A DNA stretch of 64,000 nt from assembly GCA_025353725.1 (NCBI GenBank), contig JANXOF010000016.1:1-64000 (forward strand), given 5' to 3'. Source of the stretch: Polyangiaceae bacterium. GTDB taxonomy: Bacteria > Myxococcota_A > Polyangia > Polyangiales > Polyangiaceae. A program made the translations under genes and the position numbers. Each line of letters opens with the position of its first letter. The stretch's first letter is position 1. The notes beneath the pieces are model-generated. The model saw only the letters and a program-made list of their open reading frames with translations, had not been told where the DNA came from and did no database searches. Shown here in pieces: positions 15,249 to 21,957 of the stretch.

Positions 15249-15590
15249 CTAGCCGCCGATTTCGTCGTGCTTGCGTGCTATTTCCGTAATTAAGTGAGTC
15301 TCGACGGCGCCGAGAAGGCCGAACTGGACGCCCATGCCACCACCGTTGACCCAGCGAACGATGCCCGGAAGCGAGACGGCGCTCTGGGCACCGGGCAACG
15401 TGAGCTCAAGGACCACTGCGGTACCAAAGCTCAAAGGTGAGTCGGTCTCGCAGAAGGTCCCACCCAGCGAGATATCTCGGCAAAACCCTTCGCGCGTCAA
15501 GGTGCTTCCCTGACTCGCAAATAGCGCCGGACGATTCAAAGGGGCGCGGGCGTAGCGGCGCTTCTCAATGCGGTCAGAGCGATCAGGCAC
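15249..15590 (-). CDS. PilZ domain protein (c-di-GMP receptor)
   Basis: This single-domain protein of 113 residues has both PilZ motifs: RRYARAPL (RxxxR type) near residue 11 and DISLGGTF (D/NxSxxG) near residue 40, then GIVRWVNGGGMGVQF as the closing strands. It is predicted to bind cyclic-di-GMP and act as a small cytoplasmic adaptor. The GTG start at 15590 has GAGGA 6 bases upstream. No target gene is adjacent. A GGDEF cyclase and a processive glycosyltransferase elsewhere in the window are possible partners by theme only. Confidence 0.9.
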   Translation of the reverse strand: MPDRSDRIEKRRYARAPLNRPALFASQGSTLTREGFCRDISLGGTFCETDSPLSFGTAVVLELTLPGAQSAVSLPGIVRWVNGGGMGVQFGLLGAVETHLITEIARKHDEIGG

Positions 15591-15660: not shown

Positions 15661-16740
15661 GTGACGTCCGACGACAACCAAGGCGTATCGGCTCCCGCTT
15701 CGAGGGCCGCCCCACCTCCCGACCCCCGCGTCGTGAAGGCACTCGCCGAAGCCCGCGATGCCGCCGAGCGTGCAAACCTAAAGCTAGAACCAAACGGTTC
15801 GAAGGGCGCTCGTTGGCTAGCCCTTGTACCCGTGACCGCGGGCCTTCTGACCATGCTCCTGATGATGCCGCGCGCCGCCCCACCGATGGATATCCCACTT
15901 CCACGTATCGACATGCGGGCGCTCGACGCTGTCCGAGCGGACGATCAAAGCCGCGCGGCCGAGGCGCGCGACCACCGCCTTCCCAGCGAAGTTCTCGTCG
16001 TAGGCACGTCCCTTCGCGCGCTCAATAAGGCGATGGCAAAGAACGCGACGGACGAGGAGATAGGTACGGCCCGGAACGCGCTCGACTCCGCTTTCCGCGC
16101 ACTCGCCCCCGACGGTGAGAAGGCGTTCGACATGCTGCGTACGCTGCGCGCGTTTCAGCTCGAGGCCTTCCTCGCTGAGGTCGAAAAATTCGAGACCACC
16201 GGCGTGATGACCGACGAGCTCGACGAACTCGCAGGCGGATTTATCGATCGAATGTACGCCGCCGGGTGGCTCGAGAACGGCAAGGTAATCCTCGACGAGA
16301 GCGAGAGACGCGCCGCATACAAGCTGGTCTGGACGGCGCAAGTCGGTGCCGAACGCATGCAAGCACTGGCCCTTAGCATCGATGAGCAGCGTGCGCTTTA
16401 CACACTTTACTTGCGGCACCCTCACGCACCGGAGGCCCAGCGAGCGTCGTACGAATCCCAGCGCGGCGCCGCACGAGACACCGCGGCGTGCGCGCGTGCT
16501 GTTGCGCAGGAAAAACTCGCGGTCGACCAGTGGCGACTCGAAAAGGTAAAACGCCTCGGCGACATCGACCCTCTCTATCCCGCGGCCTACGCGCTCGGCG
16601 TCGCCTACTACCGCATCGGTCGCTACGACGCGTCGGCCGAGGCCTTCCGTGCGTGGATTGAAAAGCACCCGGGCGGTCCACTCGACCTTCGCGCCCGCAA
16701 TCACCTCAAAGCGGCCCTCGAAGCTTACGGGCCGACCTAG
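15661..16740 (+). CDS. TPR-like membrane-anchored protein of unknown function
   Basis: The product is 359 residues from a GTG at 15661. A short Pro/Ala-rich cytoplasmic start precedes one transmembrane helix (ALVPVTAGLLTMLLMMPRA) at about 60-80. The rest is helical and ends in a recognisable tetratricopeptide pair (YPAAYALGVAYYRIGRYDAS, then AFRAWIEKHPGG). It is probably a periplasmic scaffold. It sits 3 bases before the response regulator gene, suggesting that it and the two-component pair share one mRNA and possibly one pathway. The frame is also open upstream to 15568, but that overlaps the divergent PilZ start and is not favoured. Confidence 0.75.
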   Translation: MTSDDNQGVSAPASRAAPPPDPRVVKALAEARDAAERANLKLEPNGSKGARWLALVPVTAGLLTMLLMMPRAAPPMDIPLPRIDMRALDAVRADDQSRAAEARDHRLPSEVLVVGTSLRALNKAMAKNATDEEIGTARNALDSAFRALAPDGEKAFDMLRTLRAFQLEAFLAEVEKFETTGVMTDELDELAGGFIDRMYAAGWLENGKVILDESERRAAYKLVWTAQVGAERMQALALSIDEQRALYTLYLRHPHAPEAQRASYESQRGAARDTAACARAVAQEKLAVDQWRLEKVKRLGDIDPLYPAAYALGVAYYRIGRYDASAEAFRAWIEKHPGGPLDLRARNHLKAALEAYGPT

Positions 16741-16743
16741 CCG

Positions 16744-17466
16744 ATGATCCGCGTGCTGCTCGTCGACGACGATCGCGCTCTCGCACGGCTCCTTACGGAT
16801 TATCTTGCGTCGCACGACGTCGTCGTAACGCACGTGGAGAGCGGATCCGAAGCGCTCGCGGTGCTCGCGGCCGCGACGTTTGACGTGGTTCTCCTCGACG
16901 TGATGCTTCCGAGCGTCGATGGCTTCGAAGTATGCCGACAAATCCGCTTAGTTCACGATGTTCCACTCATCATGCTCACCGCGCGCGGCGACGATACGGA
17001 CCGAATCCGCGGTTTGGAGCTTGGCGCCGACGACTATGTCGCGAAGCCCTTTAATCCGCGTGAACTCCTCGCGCGCGTACGAGCTGTGATGCGGCGCGCC
17101 CCTCAGCCCGGGGCGCTCGGGGATTTGCCTTCGCCCGCCCGCGAGGCGATAGTGATAGGGCCAGTCACGATCGATTGCGCGGCGCGCGTGGTCCTACGAA
17201 ATGGCGAAGAAATCTCGCTCACGGCCTTCGAGTACCGAATCCTTGTGGTGCTCGCGCGGCACGCGGGCGAGACCGTGACACGCGAGGAACTCGCGACAGA
17301 GGTTCGGGAACCGAGCGAAGCAAAGGCCACGTACGACCCAAGCGTCGACCGTTCCTTGGACGTTCACGTAGGGCGCCTCCGTCAGAAGCTTGAAGTCAAC
17401 CCGAAGGAGCCACGCCTCATCAAGTCCGTTCGCGGCGTGGGGTATGTCATGGCGACGCCCGCGTGA
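16744..17466 (+). CDS. OmpR/PhoB-family response regulator
   Basis: The receiver domain has the acidic pocket LLVDDD, phospho-acceptor Asp52 in VVLLDVMLP, Thr79 and Lys101 (VAKPF). The C-terminal winged helix is of the OmpR type (SLTAFEYRILVVLARHAGETVTREEL, DVHVGRLRQKL, SVRGVGYVM). All switch residues are present. Its stop overlaps the GTG start of the kinase gene (GTGA), so the pair is cotranslated. It should bind direct-repeat promoter sites, which cannot be seen here. Confidence 0.94.
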   Translation: MIRVLLVDDDRALARLLTDYLASHDVVVTHVESGSEALAVLAAATFDVVLLDVMLPSVDGFEVCRQIRLVHDVPLIMLTARGDDTDRIRGLELGADDYVAKPFNPRELLARVRAVMRRAPQPGALGDLPSPAREAIVIGPVTIDCAARVVLRNGEEISLTAFEYRILVVLARHAGETVTREELATEVREPSEAKATYDPSVDRSLDVHVGRLRQKLEVNPKEPRLIKSVRGVGYVMATPA

Positions 17467-18812
17467 AGTCACGCATCGGCCGCCTGCAAGCGCGCCTCTT
17501 GCTCTGGTTCCTTGCCGCGATCGTCCTGGCGCTCCTAGCGAGCGTGGTCACTACGCTTCTCACACGCGCGGAGAGCGAGCCTCCTACGCGCGTCGTCTCG
17601 AAGCACGTCCAGCGCCGCCTCGCAAAAATATGGGATGACCCGCTAGCCACCGACGCGTACGTCAGAGACCTCCGCGAAGCGACCGGACTCGACATGCGCC
17701 TACGTCGCGAACCCGAGCTGCTCGGCGGGGAAAGCGGCCGAGGCCACGGCGGCAGCATCGTCTTTGACGACAACGTCGCTTACGTCCCTATCGTACGGGG
17801 AGGGGCCGCACTCGGAGTCTTAGAACTCCGCACGGGCAGCCCCGCCCCCAAGCTTTGGAGAGTGATAGCCGCTCTTGTTGCGGCGCTCGCTGTCCTCGGC
17901 GCGGTCGCGCGTAGCGTGTCAAAAAGCCTTGCCCAACCGCTTGAGCATCTCGCCCGGACCGCCGAGCGCTTCGGCGGAGGCGACCTCAACGCACGGACAG
18001 AAATCGAGGCGATGCCGCGCCGCTGGGTGGCCGAGGAGGTTCGCGACGTCGGCCGCGCGTTCGACGGCATGGCCGACCGCATCGCGCGCGTGGTCATTGA
18101 CCAACGCGAGCTGCTTGCGGCCATTAGCCACGAGCTTCGGTCGCCCCTTAGCCGTGCACGTATCGCCCTTGAGATCGCCCGCGAGCGCACATGCCCGCAG
18201 GCCTCCCACGACGAAGTAGAACGACAGCTTATCTCGATGGACGCCATCCTTGGTGATCTCCTCGCCTCAGCACGCGCGGGCCTCTCGGATGTGCACCTCG
18301 AGGACGTCGACCTTATGGTTTGGCTACAGTCGCGCATCCGCATGGAGACTCAAGGTCCCATCGCACTCACACGCGCGGCAGGCACCGAGGCGGTCCGCGT
18401 GACCGTGGACACGGCACTTCTCGGACGTGCCCTTCACAATCTTTTCGCAAACGGCTGGAACCACGGTCACCCCGCGACGGCGTCGATCGATGTCACGGTC
18501 TCCGTGGCCTCTGGGTGCGCGCGCGTCGCCATTCGCGACCACGGGCCAGGGTTCGACGAGGCGATTTTACCGCGCGCCTTCGAGCCGTTTGTAAAGAGCG
18601 GCGACTCCGCACGCTCACCCGGATCGCAAGGCATCGGTCTCGGACTTTCGTTAGTCCGGCGAATCGTCGAGGCACACGGCGGAACGATCGCGGCCGCCAA
18701 TGTCACGCAAGGCTCCGCCTCGGTGGGAGCAGAGGTTGCGTTCCAGCTTCCCCTCGCCTCCGCGAGATTCGAAGATGAGCTCAAATTGCACGCCCTACCG
18801 CCGATCGACTAG
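17463..18812 (+). CDS. Membrane sensor histidine kinase
   Basis: The 449-residue kinase has transmembrane helices at about 11-34 and 133-150 flanking a short periplasmic sensor of about 100 residues. A HAMP domain, a HisKA box with His223 in ISHELRSPLSRARI, and an HATPase domain follow: the N box FANGWNHG, DHGPGFD, and GIGLGLSLVRRIVEAHGG. It is the cognate kinase of the overlapping OmpR-type regulator and resembles the CpxA/EnvZ layout of envelope sensors. The ligand is unknown. The signal-peptidase homologue starts 12 bases downstream. Confidence 0.93.
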   Translation: MKSRIGRLQARLLLWFLAAIVLALLASVVTTLLTRAESEPPTRVVSKHVQRRLAKIWDDPLATDAYVRDLREATGLDMRLRREPELLGGESGRGHGGSIVFDDNVAYVPIVRGGAALGVLELRTGSPAPKLWRVIAALVAALAVLGAVARSVSKSLAQPLEHLARTAERFGGGDLNARTEIEAMPRRWVAEEVRDVGRAFDGMADRIARVVIDQRELLAAISHELRSPLSRARIALEIARERTCPQASHDEVERQLISMDAILGDLLASARAGLSDVHLEDVDLMVWLQSRIRMETQGPIALTRAAGTEAVRVTVDTALLGRALHNLFANGWNHGHPATASIDVTVSVASGCARVAIRDHGPGFDEAILPRAFEPFVKSGDSARSPGSQGIGLGLSLVRRIVEAHGGTIAAANVTQGSASVGAEVAFQLPLASARFEDELKLHALPPID

Positions 18813-18824
18813 CGTGCAAAGCCC

Positions 18825-19442
18825 ATGCTTCGCAGTCTCGTGTGGCTAAGCGCGATGGCGGCGGCGTGCGGTGTGCTCCTCTACTTATTCGTGCTCGATA
18901 CGTGGATCATCCCCAAGGGCGATCCGGTGCTGGCCGCAGCACTTCAGCCTACACTCGCGCCTGAAGATCGAATTTTAACGCGCCGTGGTACGCGTCCACC
19001 ACGAGGCGTGCTTGCGCGTTGCAGGCGACCCGACAACGCGACGAGCTATGTCATTGGTCGCCTTTTCGGGCTCGAGGGCGACACCATCGAAGTAAACAAC
19101 GAGCGCGTCGCGGTCGACGGCAAAAGCGTTCCGGCGCGCTTCGGATGCGGGTCGGTTTACGTCGTTCACCCTGTTTCCGGCGCGACGGTCGGCTTGACGT
19201 GCAGCGTCGAAGACAGCGGCACCTCCACGTACGGCGTCCTCGTGCATCCAGGACACCGGGAACGTCAGCGCGTCGCAAGGGTGGCAACAGGAAAGGCTTA
19301 CATCGTAAGCGATAACCGACACTTTCACCTTGATTCACGTGATTTCGGCCAGGTCGACGTCGCGACCTGTGAGCCCGTCATCGCTCGGCTCTGGGGCGCA
19401 CGATTCTCGGATGCGTCCCGACGATTCAACATCCTCTGGTGA
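18825..19442 (+). CDS. Signal peptidase I (S26) homologue lacking both catalytic residues
   Basis: The N-terminal transmembrane helix (residues 5-24) and the S26 boxes are recognisable: AALQPTLAPEDRIL matches box B (SMxPTLxxGDxIL), YVIGRLFGLEGDTIEV matches box D (YxKRVxGLPGDxI), and SDNRHFHLDSRDFGQV matches box E (GDNRxxSxDSRxFG). In box B Ala39 stands where the nucleophilic Ser should be, and in box D Gly78 stands where the general-base Lys should be. Cleavage by the Ser/Lys mechanism therefore looks impossible, while the fold motifs are kept. It has four Cys in the outer domain. It follows the two-component genes in the same direction, which suggests a regulatory or chaperone-like role. This is inference. 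Confidence 0.85.
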   Translation: MLRSLVWLSAMAAACGVLLYLFVLDTWIIPKGDPVLAAALQPTLAPEDRILTRRGTRPPRGVLARCRRPDNATSYVIGRLFGLEGDTIEVNNERVAVDGKSVPARFGCGSVYVVHPVSGATVGLTCSVEDSGTSTYGVLVHPGHRERQRVARVATGKAYIVSDNRHFHLDSRDFGQVDVATCEPVIARLWGARFSDASRRFNILW

Positions 19443-19476
19443 CCCGTCGTTTTTTGGTAAGCTCCGGCAGCCCGCG

Positions 19477-20511
19477 ATGAACCTCGAGATTGGCATTGTC
19501 TGCGCAGGGTGTGAGGCCTACTCGGTCCTCGGTACGCTCGCGTGCGAATCCTGCGGAAATCCGGTCTCGCTTGTCATGCCTGTGGCGCCTGCCGCTCTCG
19601 AGGCCTCGAGCGCCTCATTCCCCGAACTCGCGCCGGAACCTGCGAGTACAGAGGCCACAGCCCCCGTCGCGCGGTCCTCGAGCCGACCGACGAAGTCATC
19701 CAAAGCAAAGCTTTCCGTCGAGGAACTTATGGATCAAGCCAAGAACTTCGTGTGCCGTTCATGCTCGACCGCCGTACCGCTGGGGCACAAGTTCTGCGGC
19801 CGGTGCGGTGCCGGCTTGCCTCCTGAAATCCTCCAGGCGAGGACCCAATTCTTCGGGCAGCTTCAGACGCCGGGTAAAGCAAAGCTCATTCTGATTCGCG
19901 GCGAGGGGGTCGAGGGTCTGAGCTACCAACTCAATGCGGAAGAGCACATGGTCGGTCGTCTTGGTCAGCTCGTGTTTCCCGACGATCCGTTTGTGTCGCC
20001 CAAGCACGCCAACTTTCTTTACCGCGAAGGCAAACTCTTCGTGAAGGACGAAGGCTCACTCAACGGCGTTTATTTACGGGTCAAAGGCACAATCGACGTG
20101 GAACCCGGCGATTATTTTCTTGCAGGTGAGCAAGTGTTCCGCGTCGATGCGACCGTGAAAACCAGCGACCAACCCGGCCCCGACGGCACGTACTTTTACT
20201 CGTCGCCGAAGCATCAGAGTCCGTTTCGAATGACTCAAATTCTCCAGGGCGGGTCGGCGGGTATGACGGTTTGCGCGCGCGGATCGAGCTTGCAAATCGG
20301 CCGTGAGGGCGGCGACCTCAACTTTCCGAGTGATCTCTACATGAGCGCCGCACATTGCAAGGTCGAGGAGGCGGCCGGACGGCTCATGCTGACCGACTTG
20401 AATAGCCGAAATGGAAGCTATGTGCGACTGCAGGCTGAGCGTGAGCTCTCCCACGGCGATTACGTTTTCATTGGACGAAAGCTGCTGCGGGTGGAGATTA
20501 CGGCAGCTTAG
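19477..20511 (+). CDS. Zinc-ribbon and double-FHA domain protein
   Basis: The product is 344 residues from ATG 19477. It opens with a Cys4 zinc ribbon (Cys9, 12, 23, 26), then an Ala/Pro/Ser linker, and a second ribbon (CRSCSTAVPLGHKFCGRCG). Two forkhead-associated domains follow. The first has GRLGQLVFPDDPFVSPKHA and EGSLNGVYLR; the second has IGREGGDLNFPSDLYMSAAH and DLNSRNGSYVR. FHA domains bind phosphothreonine, so this is a likely cytoplasmic reader of Ser/Thr kinase signals. It is 34 bases behind the dead signal peptidase gene and probably the last gene of that operon. Confidence 0.9.
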   Translation: MNLEIGIVCAGCEAYSVLGTLACESCGNPVSLVMPVAPAALEASSASFPELAPEPASTEATAPVARSSSRPTKSSKAKLSVEELMDQAKNFVCRSCSTAVPLGHKFCGRCGAGLPPEILQARTQFFGQLQTPGKAKLILIRGEGVEGLSYQLNAEEHMVGRLGQLVFPDDPFVSPKHANFLYREGKLFVKDEGSLNGVYLRVKGTIDVEPGDYFLAGEQVFRVDATVKTSDQPGPDGTYFYSSPKHQSPFRMTQILQGGSAGMTVCARGSSLQIGREGGDLNFPSDLYMSAAHCKVEEAAGRLMLTDLNSRNGSYVRLQAERELSHGDYVFIGRKLLRVEITAA

Positions 20512-20529: not shown

Positions 20530-21957
20530 CTAGCGGCGCACTCCGCGCTGACGTGGAAACGAACTGGTTCGACGCGGCTCACGTGTCGCGGACGTAGGCA
20601 TCGCCTCACGGCGGAGCACTTCGAGTGCGCTGGTGCTCTCACCGCGTGAGGCAAGGACAAGCTCAGCAACCTCGAGTGCAGGCAAAAACAGTTCCGTCCG
20701 TGTAAACCGACCGCTTCTACCTGCGATAATACGAGGCACCATCACCACGATGCGACGGATCGCGTCGGCAATGCGACGTGGCATTGCGATTCGGTCGATG
20801 ACCGGTTCGAGAAAATCGTTCACGGCACTCACGAGGTCGCGCATGCCTTGAGCCGCTTCTTCCAGCGGGTCGTAGAAGAGAGCTGTCATCAAGACGATAT
20901 CGTCAAGCGCGCCGCCAGCCCGCGTTCGCTCATCGATCAGGCGCATCTTCTTGAAAAAGCGAAAGCTGCCCCCCGCGGTCGCTTCGTCGTCATCGAGAAA
21001 CGCCGACAGCTCGGGCATGAGAACGGCCATCGCTCCCATTTCCCACATAAGCCACATCGAACGATGCGAACTGCCCATACGCATCAACCTGAGAATCTCC
21101 TCGAAGATGCGCGGCCGAGCGGCACGTGCGAGCTCGAAGCGGCTTCCCACCATGGCGTCGTAGACGGCGGGGTCAATGCCTAGGTCAAGGCGCGCCGCAA
21201 ACTTGATAGCGCGAAGGATTCGCACGGGGTCTTCGCGGAACCGCACCGCAGGTTCACCTATCGTACGAATCGTCTTGGCCTGGATATCCGGCATCCCGCC
21301 GCACCAGTCGAGGACTTGCCGGCGATCGAGGTCGTAAAACAAGGCATTGATCGTAAAGTCGCGGCGAAGCGCGTCTTCGTGAGCCTCACCGAACACGTTG
21401 TCGCTTCGAATCAGGAGATCGTCGTCCAGGTCCTCGGCATCGCCGTCGCCCGATAAGGACGTGGGGTTCCTGCGAAACGTAGCGACCTCGACCACCTTGC
21501 CGCCGCCAAAAAGGACATGAGCGAGCCGAAAGCGCCGCCCGATGATCCGGCAATTCCGAAAGAGCGACCGGACGTCGTCAGGCCGGGCACTGGTGGCCAC
21601 GTCAAAGTCCTTCGGACGGCCGCCTAGCAATAAGTCGCGCACGCAACCGCCCACGAGGTACGCCTGAAACCCGGCTCGCTCGAGACGTTGTACGACGCGC
21701 GCGGCGTCGGCATCAATCGATGCCTCGTCGAGTGGAGCATCGTGACGCAGAAGTCCGGTCGCGTCGTGACGCTCGCCATCGTGATCGCGCTCGGAGCGCT
21801 TGGCCCCATGACGGTTATCCTCCCCATGGTGTGAGGGATGGTGTGACCGGCCCGAACGTGCCGGGCGCTCGGAGGTCTCCACGTCGGCTGCGACGGTGAA
21901 CGAGGGAAGGTCCGGCGGGGACGGTAAGTCGGGGTTGGACGCGTTACGGCGGCGCAT
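20530..21957 (-). CDS. pcnB: Poly(A) polymerase / CCA-type nucleotidyltransferase, PcnB-like
   Basis: The class II nucleotidyltransferase head has LVGGCVRDLLLGGRPKDFDV with the catalytic Asp pair, then the polymerase-specific IIGRRFRLAHV, the neck motif RRDFTINALFYD, and EDPVRILRAIKFAARL. The RRFRLAHV stretch favours poly(A) polymerase over CCA enzyme. Its role is to add 3' A tails that feed mRNA decay. About 75 N-terminal residues are disordered and rich in His, Arg and Asp (SHHPSHHGEDNRHG), and the C-terminus is Arg-rich, which may aid RNA binding. It converges with the FHA gene (18 bases between stops). Confidence 0.9.
   Translation of the reverse strand: MRRRNASNPDLPSPPDLPSFTVAADVETSERPARSGRSHHPSHHGEDNRHGAKRSERDHDGERHDATGLLRHDAPLDEASIDADAARVVQRLERAGFQAYLVGGCVRDLLLGGRPKDFDVATSARPDDVRSLFRNCRIIGRRFRLAHVLFGGGKVVEVATFRRNPTSLSGDGDAEDLDDDLLIRSDNVFGEAHEDALRRDFTINALFYDLDRRQVLDWCGGMPDIQAKTIRTIGEPAVRFREDPVRILRAIKFAARLDLGIDPAVYDAMVGSRFELARAARPRIFEEILRLMRMGSSHRSMWLMWEMGAMAVLMPELSAFLDDDEATAGGSFRFFKKMRLIDERTRAGGALDDIVLMTALFYDPLEEAAQGMRDLVSAVNDFLEPVIDRIAMPRRIADAIRRIVVMVPRIIAGRSGRFTRTELFLPALEVAELVLASRGESTSALEVLRREAMPTSATREPRRTSSFPRQRGVRR

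Follow-up and report, generated by a model that had tools for sequence, protein, structure and literature searches.

Signal-peptidase paralogues that have lost their activity are known singly, in Gram-positive bacteria. In the available text of PMC4049620, SipA of Streptococcus pyogenes is described as a protein with the type I signal peptidase (SPase I) fold in which Lys has been replaced by Gly and the peptide-binding cleft is conserved; it is essential for pilus polymerisation and has been proposed to bind peptides (PMC4049620). SpsA of Staphylococcus aureus, as far as the available text of PMC12445088 presents it, is an inactive and dispensable SPase I paralogue that stands beside an active one. 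Within the open-licence literature, we found no published account of an inactive signal peptidase in myxobacteria. Here, we describe a putative protein of this kind, hereafter SP, encoded in a 64,000-nucleotide stretch of a Polyangiaceae genome (contig JANXOF010000016.1; the whole stretch is referred to as the window), which forms contig 92 in a draft assembly of 6.6 Mb. SP is the fourth of five genes that lie on the + strand at 15661–20511 and encode, in order, a TPR membrane protein, an OmpR-type response regulator, a membrane histidine kinase, SP and a zinc-ribbon/double-FHA protein. SP is probably an add-on to this sensor and not its centre, and our preferred reading, put forward tentatively, is that the TPR protein and SP together serve a kinase–FHA core as an accessory periplasmic input that involves no cleavage.

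SP (18825–19442, + strand) exceeds the cut-offs of both Pfam Peptidase_S26 (49.4 versus 22.9 bits) and the NCBIfam model ‘signal peptidase I’ (50.7 versus 47), so that automatic annotation would label it an active enzyme. SP was aligned with the true LepB from the same genome, one Sorangium LepB and solved SPases, and the roles of the relevant Escherichia coli LepB positions were taken from the available text of PMC4049620. In this alignment, S90 corresponds to Ala39, K145 to Gly78, G272 to Ser162 and S278 to His168. The product is predicted to have one N-terminal membrane helix, and its structural model (mean pLDDT 87.0, pTM 0.81, built from 22 sequences) has the SPase I fold: the best Foldseek matches were E. 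coli LepB structures (E 3.2e-09), and VIA-align superposed the model on E. coli LepB 1t7d with a Z of 18.6 over 171 residues and an rmsd of 2.4. SipA was itself recovered as a relative of SP, both by sequence (E 4.1e-06) and by fold (Z 11.9). With neither dyad residue present on a confidently predicted LepB fold, SP is, judging from its sequence, catalytically void, in agreement with the initial annotation of the locus. The same genome carries a second Peptidase_S26 gene (L002, C13:295685–296203; 124.1 bits).

None of the 83 aligned SP relatives has the Lys of the K145 position; they comprise 64 members from the window's family, three from its divergent genus g2 and 16 from the order's other families. 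Both true LepB controls have this Lys. By our reading of their sequences, it is likewise missing from nine further relatives, of which seven belong to f20, a family outside the order. Each of the 11 close pairs tested gave a dN/dS under 1 for SP, with a range of 0.06 to 0.79, and SP is under purifying selection; these ratios, together with the conserved box E and four cysteines, rule out the notion that SP is a decaying relic. The cysteines (C66, C108, C126 and C182) are conserved across nearly all SPs of the family, which suggests two periplasmic disulfides. Ahead of the Ser site, SPs of the family have a stretch of 7 to 10 residues where 2 are usual, an insertion of 5 to 8 residues in which the SP model shows a short helix.

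The five genes are tightly packed, with a gap of 3 bases, an overlap of 4 bases and gaps of 12 and 34 bases, in that order, which bears out the initial description of a collinear series with overlaps or gaps of at most 34 bases. The TPR gene (15661–16740, + strand) has a GTG start, and its product is predicted to consist of about 50 cytoplasmic residues, one membrane helix and then a helical domain that ends in a single C-terminal TPR. Its TPR_16 match (E 4.7e-05) falls under Pfam's cut-off; the model of the protein reached a mean pLDDT of 84.0 on an alignment only seven sequences deep, and a fold search with this model found nothing at E <= 0.001, the best matches being TPR folds at 2.6e-02. 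The regulator (16744–17466, + strand; Response_reg 107.8 bits, Trans_reg_C 76.6 bits) has its receiver Asp, and the kinase (17463–18812, + strand), in which Pfam recognizes HAMP, HisKA and HATPase domains next to a periplasmic sensor domain, has its H-box. The two form an OmpR-type two-component pair, a receiver plus winged-helix regulator beside a HAMP/HisKA/HATPase kinase. The FHA gene (19477–20511, + strand, ATG start) is the most conserved of the five. Its product matches FHA (PF00498) at 59.3 bits in two stretches and DZR at 28.5 bits, and the GR/SxxH/NG residues are retained in both FHA domains; with these domains and binding residues it is a putative phospho-Thr reader. The motifs read here from the sequences are what we take to be the receiver Asp, the H-box and the FHA GR/SxxH/NG residues. 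The juxtaposition of three signalling chemistries described in the initial annotation is upheld. A role in anti-phage defence was also considered and set aside, as PADLOC gave no match for the four of the five proteins that were scanned (TPR protein, kinase, SP and FHA protein).

The five genes differ widely in their distribution. Among the 183 genomes of the order, SP matches were found in 148 (E <= 1e-5; the match in at least one genome, G127, is to a true LepB only), TPR protein matches in 107, FHA matches in 172 (E <= 1e-40) and a kinase orthologue in a restricted set of 28 (E <= 2.1e-58); in the class, the FHA protein was matched in 258 of 289 genomes at E <= 1e-50. Neighbourhoods were examined at 67 SP loci, selected from among the family genomes that had an SP match, and at 16 of the loci matched in other families. 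Two loci were excluded from the SP counts as true LepB (L163 of G127 and L111 of G163), and L112 was replaced by the longer L161. Contig ends made three of the 67 family rows unassessable for the FHA gene and one for the kinase, and the protease count uses the same 66.

An FHA gene followed within 1.5 kb of SP in 53 of 64 assessable family loci. The kinase lay directly upstream of SP in 19 of 66, the window included, and a gene for a trypsin-like protease occupied this position in 22 of 66. The 19 kinase loci represent 18 genomes, L041 and L045 being two copies in the draft genome G123; G074 and G111, where the kinase is at a contig end, were counted neither way, and in G075, whose locus lies outside the detailed set, a partial SP adjoins the kinase by match coordinates. 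Seven family loci (in g4, g23, g31 and g2) have the TPR–SP pair without the kinase. With the same profiles, neither the kinase nor the FHA gene was found beside SP in other families of the order (0/16 each), where the neighbours of SP were thiG and thiE, a different kinase or varied genes. The different kinase belongs to family f5, where the gene immediately before a Lys-less SP is another HisKA/HATPase gene (L098, 7135–8190 on the − strand, and L095–L097; Pfam-checked for L098 only). One of the results that the initial annotation had named as refuting it, a dead peptidase gene mostly away from the two-component genes, thus turned up in good part. An operon built around the dead peptidase, as originally proposed, is not borne out by these counts, nor by five genomes, described below, in which kinase and FHA genes occur without SP.

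A quick SP tree, in which many forks are weak, joined the kinase loci with the TPR-only loci, g2 excepted, in a group of 24 (SH-aLRT 85), and the protease loci fell within a separate group of 40 (SH-aLRT 91); the presence of the kinase requires four changes on this tree. The kinase–SP order is not due to chance, since the kinase directly precedes SP in 19 family loci, and it has been retained in several genera although the sequences have diverged strongly.

Upstream of the TPR gene, and divergent from it, lies a gene for a PilZ-domain protein that is likely to bind c-di-GMP (15249–15590, − strand; Pfam PilZ 47.6 bits). The same divergent PilZ–TPR pair was seen without SP in Sorangium and others (G163, G164, G162, G129 and G103; loci L151, L152, L160, L148 and L205), and it is an older, family-wide module. 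In the clade of the window's genus, the regulator and kinase sit between the PilZ–TPR pair and the SP–FHA pair, and both pairs occur in the wider family without the kinase. We lean, with somewhat less than even confidence, towards a clade-specific assembly of older pieces in place of one operon around a dead enzyme. Downstream, a convergent gene of the poly(A)-polymerase/CCA-transferase type (20530–21957, − strand; PolyA_pol 115.8 bits) lies outside the unit and is found near the FHA gene in many family loci. Outside the family, a second FHA gene often follows the first (L173, L178, L180, L183, L184 and L191). No constant FHA partner emerged among 20 FHA loci outside the SP–FHA arrangement, and several of the flanking genes had no Pfam match at all.

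As well as the gene neighbourhoods, short upstream elements bear on whether the five genes are expressed together. Within 45 bases upstream of the start, the −10-like pattern TANNNT was present in the kinase clade at 18 of 18 FHA genes and 17 of 19 SP genes, at 2 of 16 regulator genes and at none of 17 kinase genes, and it occurred in 1681 of 38000 random 45-mers from the same loci; the TPR start was left out of the comparison, the TPR profile beginning well inside the gene. In the window, the element before SP is TAGCGT (18810–18815, + strand), a pattern match only that overlaps the kinase stop codon, and the element before the FHA gene is the conserved TAAGCT (19458–19463, + strand), a pattern match within TTTTTTGGTAAGCTC. 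TANNNT may share its TA with a stop codon, as it does before SP in the window, and the regulator and kinase starts that serve as controls also come after stop codons. Across the family, 53 of the 60 SP genes in the kinase, protease and other groups have the element upstream, but only two of the seven in the TPR-only loci. Before the FHA gene it is not universal (31/53 loci), and it is also present there in the SP-less genomes G118, G119 and G144. A TTG was found 16–19 bases upstream of the SP element in 19 of 55 cases, compared with 2 of 55 when a control spacing was used. For FHA the corresponding figures were 2 of 31 and 1 of 31, which makes its element the weaker promoter candidate. Because a scan of the window for the sigma-70 consensus found no promoter, we treat TANNNT as a footprint and not as a proven promoter. 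The five genes had been described as one unit, and a single transcript is now doubtful given the conserved −10-like elements that SP and the FHA gene have of their own; separate promoters are in good part what the pattern suggests, for SP and FHA and not for the regulator and kinase.

Natural deletions offer a view of how the parts depend on each other. The regulator, kinase and FHA genes occur without an intervening SP in five genomes, namely G118 and G119 of the window's genus and G144, G145 and G146 of g42. A profile search for SP in these genomes returned one weak match each (E 3.2e-11 to 8.2e-9), presumably the true LepB. In a tree of regulator plus kinase, G118 and G119 form a sister pair (SH-aLRT 100) adjacent to the window and G126, and g42 forms a separate branch, so that SP has been lost at least twice. 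G119 (100% complete) lacks SP and has kept the TPR gene and the entire sensor domain. G118 (98% complete) lacks SP and gave no TPR match either; its kinase (L145, 6463–7554) has an open frame across the junction and is without approximately residues 56–127, with both membrane helices and the kinase core kept. The corresponding segment of the window (17628–17843, + strand), missing in frame from the G118 alignment, covers most of the periplasmic sensor domain. An order of events in which SP was lost first, followed by the TPR protein and the sensor domain, fits a single periplasmic input.

Our data are compatible with a locus composed of a kinase–FHA core and a removable TPR/SP input, situated within one lineage of a large signal-peptidase family that is devoid of the Lys, and we offer this model with reserve. 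The TPR protein and SP would both face the periplasm and feed the kinase as an accessory input. The cleft of SP would bind extended peptides and leave them uncut, be they unprocessed signal peptides or stretches close to the membrane. SP and the TPR domain would jointly set the activity of the kinase via the periplasmic domain of the latter. The regulator would then set transcription, and the FHA protein may read Thr-phosphorylated partners in the cytoplasm, tying the pathway to Ser/Thr kinases. The kinase–FHA core could exist without SP, with the FHA protein as its constant cytoplasmic partner. We infer the topology, the peptide binding, the contacts and the signal in this model. The envelope-sensor idea of the initial annotation finds some support, in part, in the losses of G119 and G118, in the persistence of the TPR–SP pair where the kinase is absent and in the different kinase beside SP in f5.

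Several observations weigh against the accessory-input model. SP and the FHA gene look like putative separate transcription units. SP is dispensable, with its repeated loss leaving the kinase and FHA protein in place, and the sensor domain does not need SP, since it is intact without SP in G119 and g42. The co-loss in G118 concerns one lineage with a small genome, from which many genes have perhaps gone, and the majority of SP relatives are neighboured by a protease gene or by other genes. The insertion ahead of the Ser site may cover or block the modelled peptide cleft, and a simple copy of the SipA model is disfavoured for this reason. Even for SipA, the assays described in the available text of PMC4049620 detected no signal-peptide binding.

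An explanation that we rank nearly as likely as the accessory input, and which remains short of a favoured one, is that the locus consists of three units, each with its own transcript (TPR–regulator–kinase, SP and FHA), that came together historically, with SP outside the kinase pathway. The −10-like elements of SP and FHA, nearly lacking at the regulator and kinase, agree with it, as do the spread of SP–FHA through the family without the kinase, the unrelated genes that neighbour SP elsewhere and the class-wide occurrence of the FHA protein irrespective of SP. However, simple neighbourhood does not readily account for a kinase–SP order held in 19 loci of several diverged genera, for the losses of SP, TPR and sensor domain in the G119/G118 pair or for another kinase adjoining SP in f5.

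Less probable, and in our view unlikely, is a generalization of the accessory input in which Lys-less signal peptidases have been reused throughout Polyangia as non-cleaving receptors of signal peptides or other peptides near the membrane. In the window's lineage, receptor and TPR partner would report the load of unprocessed secreted protein to the kinase, and after loss of the receptor the TPR protein and sensor domain could follow.

Still more unlikely is that SP modulates proteolysis independently of signalling, by competing for or chaperoning the proteins on which the true LepB, or a trypsin-like protease in the periplasm, acts. The protease gene directly upstream of SP in 22 family loci is in keeping with such a role, and so are the inactive SpsA beside the active SpsB, as described in the available text of PMC12445088, and the presence of a true LepB with Ser and Lys (L001) in the window's own genome. 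Yet the protease is not beside SP in the window's clade, and the true lepB lies on a different contig from SP. Loci of the protease group (for example L056, 3332–8390), an arrangement common to much of the family, show a proB-like gene, the trypsin-like serine protease gene and then SP–FHA, in place of the kinase.

Of 64 family members, 60 retain the Ser of the S90 position despite the universal loss of Lys; position 272 is Ser in 63 of 64, and position 278 is His in 39 and Pro in 22 of 64, which rules out a fixed replacement base there. That most relatives are active through this Ser and an alternative base, the window copy having lost even the Ser, would explain a retention that pure scaffolding does not, and position 278 is indeed His in 24 of 24 members of the kinase/TPR clade, but we consider it highly improbable given Ala in place of Ser in the window, G124, G110 and G068, Pro at position 278 in 22 of the 40 other family rows and Ser at position 272, where Gly has to be small beside Lys145 (PMC4049620, available text).

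A large, old and constrained Lys-less family in Gram-negative myxobacteria that standard models name ‘signal peptidase I’ represents an annotation trap. It is also a ready set for studying what the signal-peptidase fold can do without cutting, and the graded natural deletions (G119, G118 and g42 versus intact relatives) provide a direct route to whether SP and the TPR protein feed the kinase.

Among known two-component systems, CpxP–CpxA is an envelope-stress system with a periplasmic accessory protein. The locus resembles it in having an OmpR-type regulator, a HAMP kinase with a periplasmic domain and a possible periplasmic partner coded adjacently, and differs in that the partner is a pseudo-peptidase that is often absent; membership of Cpx was ruled out by the NCBIfam scores for CpxR (168.3 versus a cut-off of 341) and CpxA (116.1 versus 486). 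With LepB, SP shares the predicted fold, the N-terminal membrane helix and the DNR....DSR box, whereas Ser, Lys, Gly272 and Ser278 are all missing from the window copy. The likeness to SpsA is one of description, and the available text of PMC12445088 mentions no two-component link for SpsA. SipA is coded in a pilus cluster, whereas SP has TPR, regulator, kinase and FHA neighbours, so the locus does not fit a sortase/pilus setting. Unlike SipA, the SP family has the insertion ahead of the Ser site and the four conserved cysteines, and the Ser position is Asp in SipA, Ala in the window SP and Ser in most SP relatives. Nevertheless, SipA (PDB 4n31 and 4k8w) and SP both have an SPase I fold without the dyad, with Gly at the Lys145 position in each, and the Gly272 and Ser278 positions are replaced in both, as far as the available text of PMC4049620 describes SipA.

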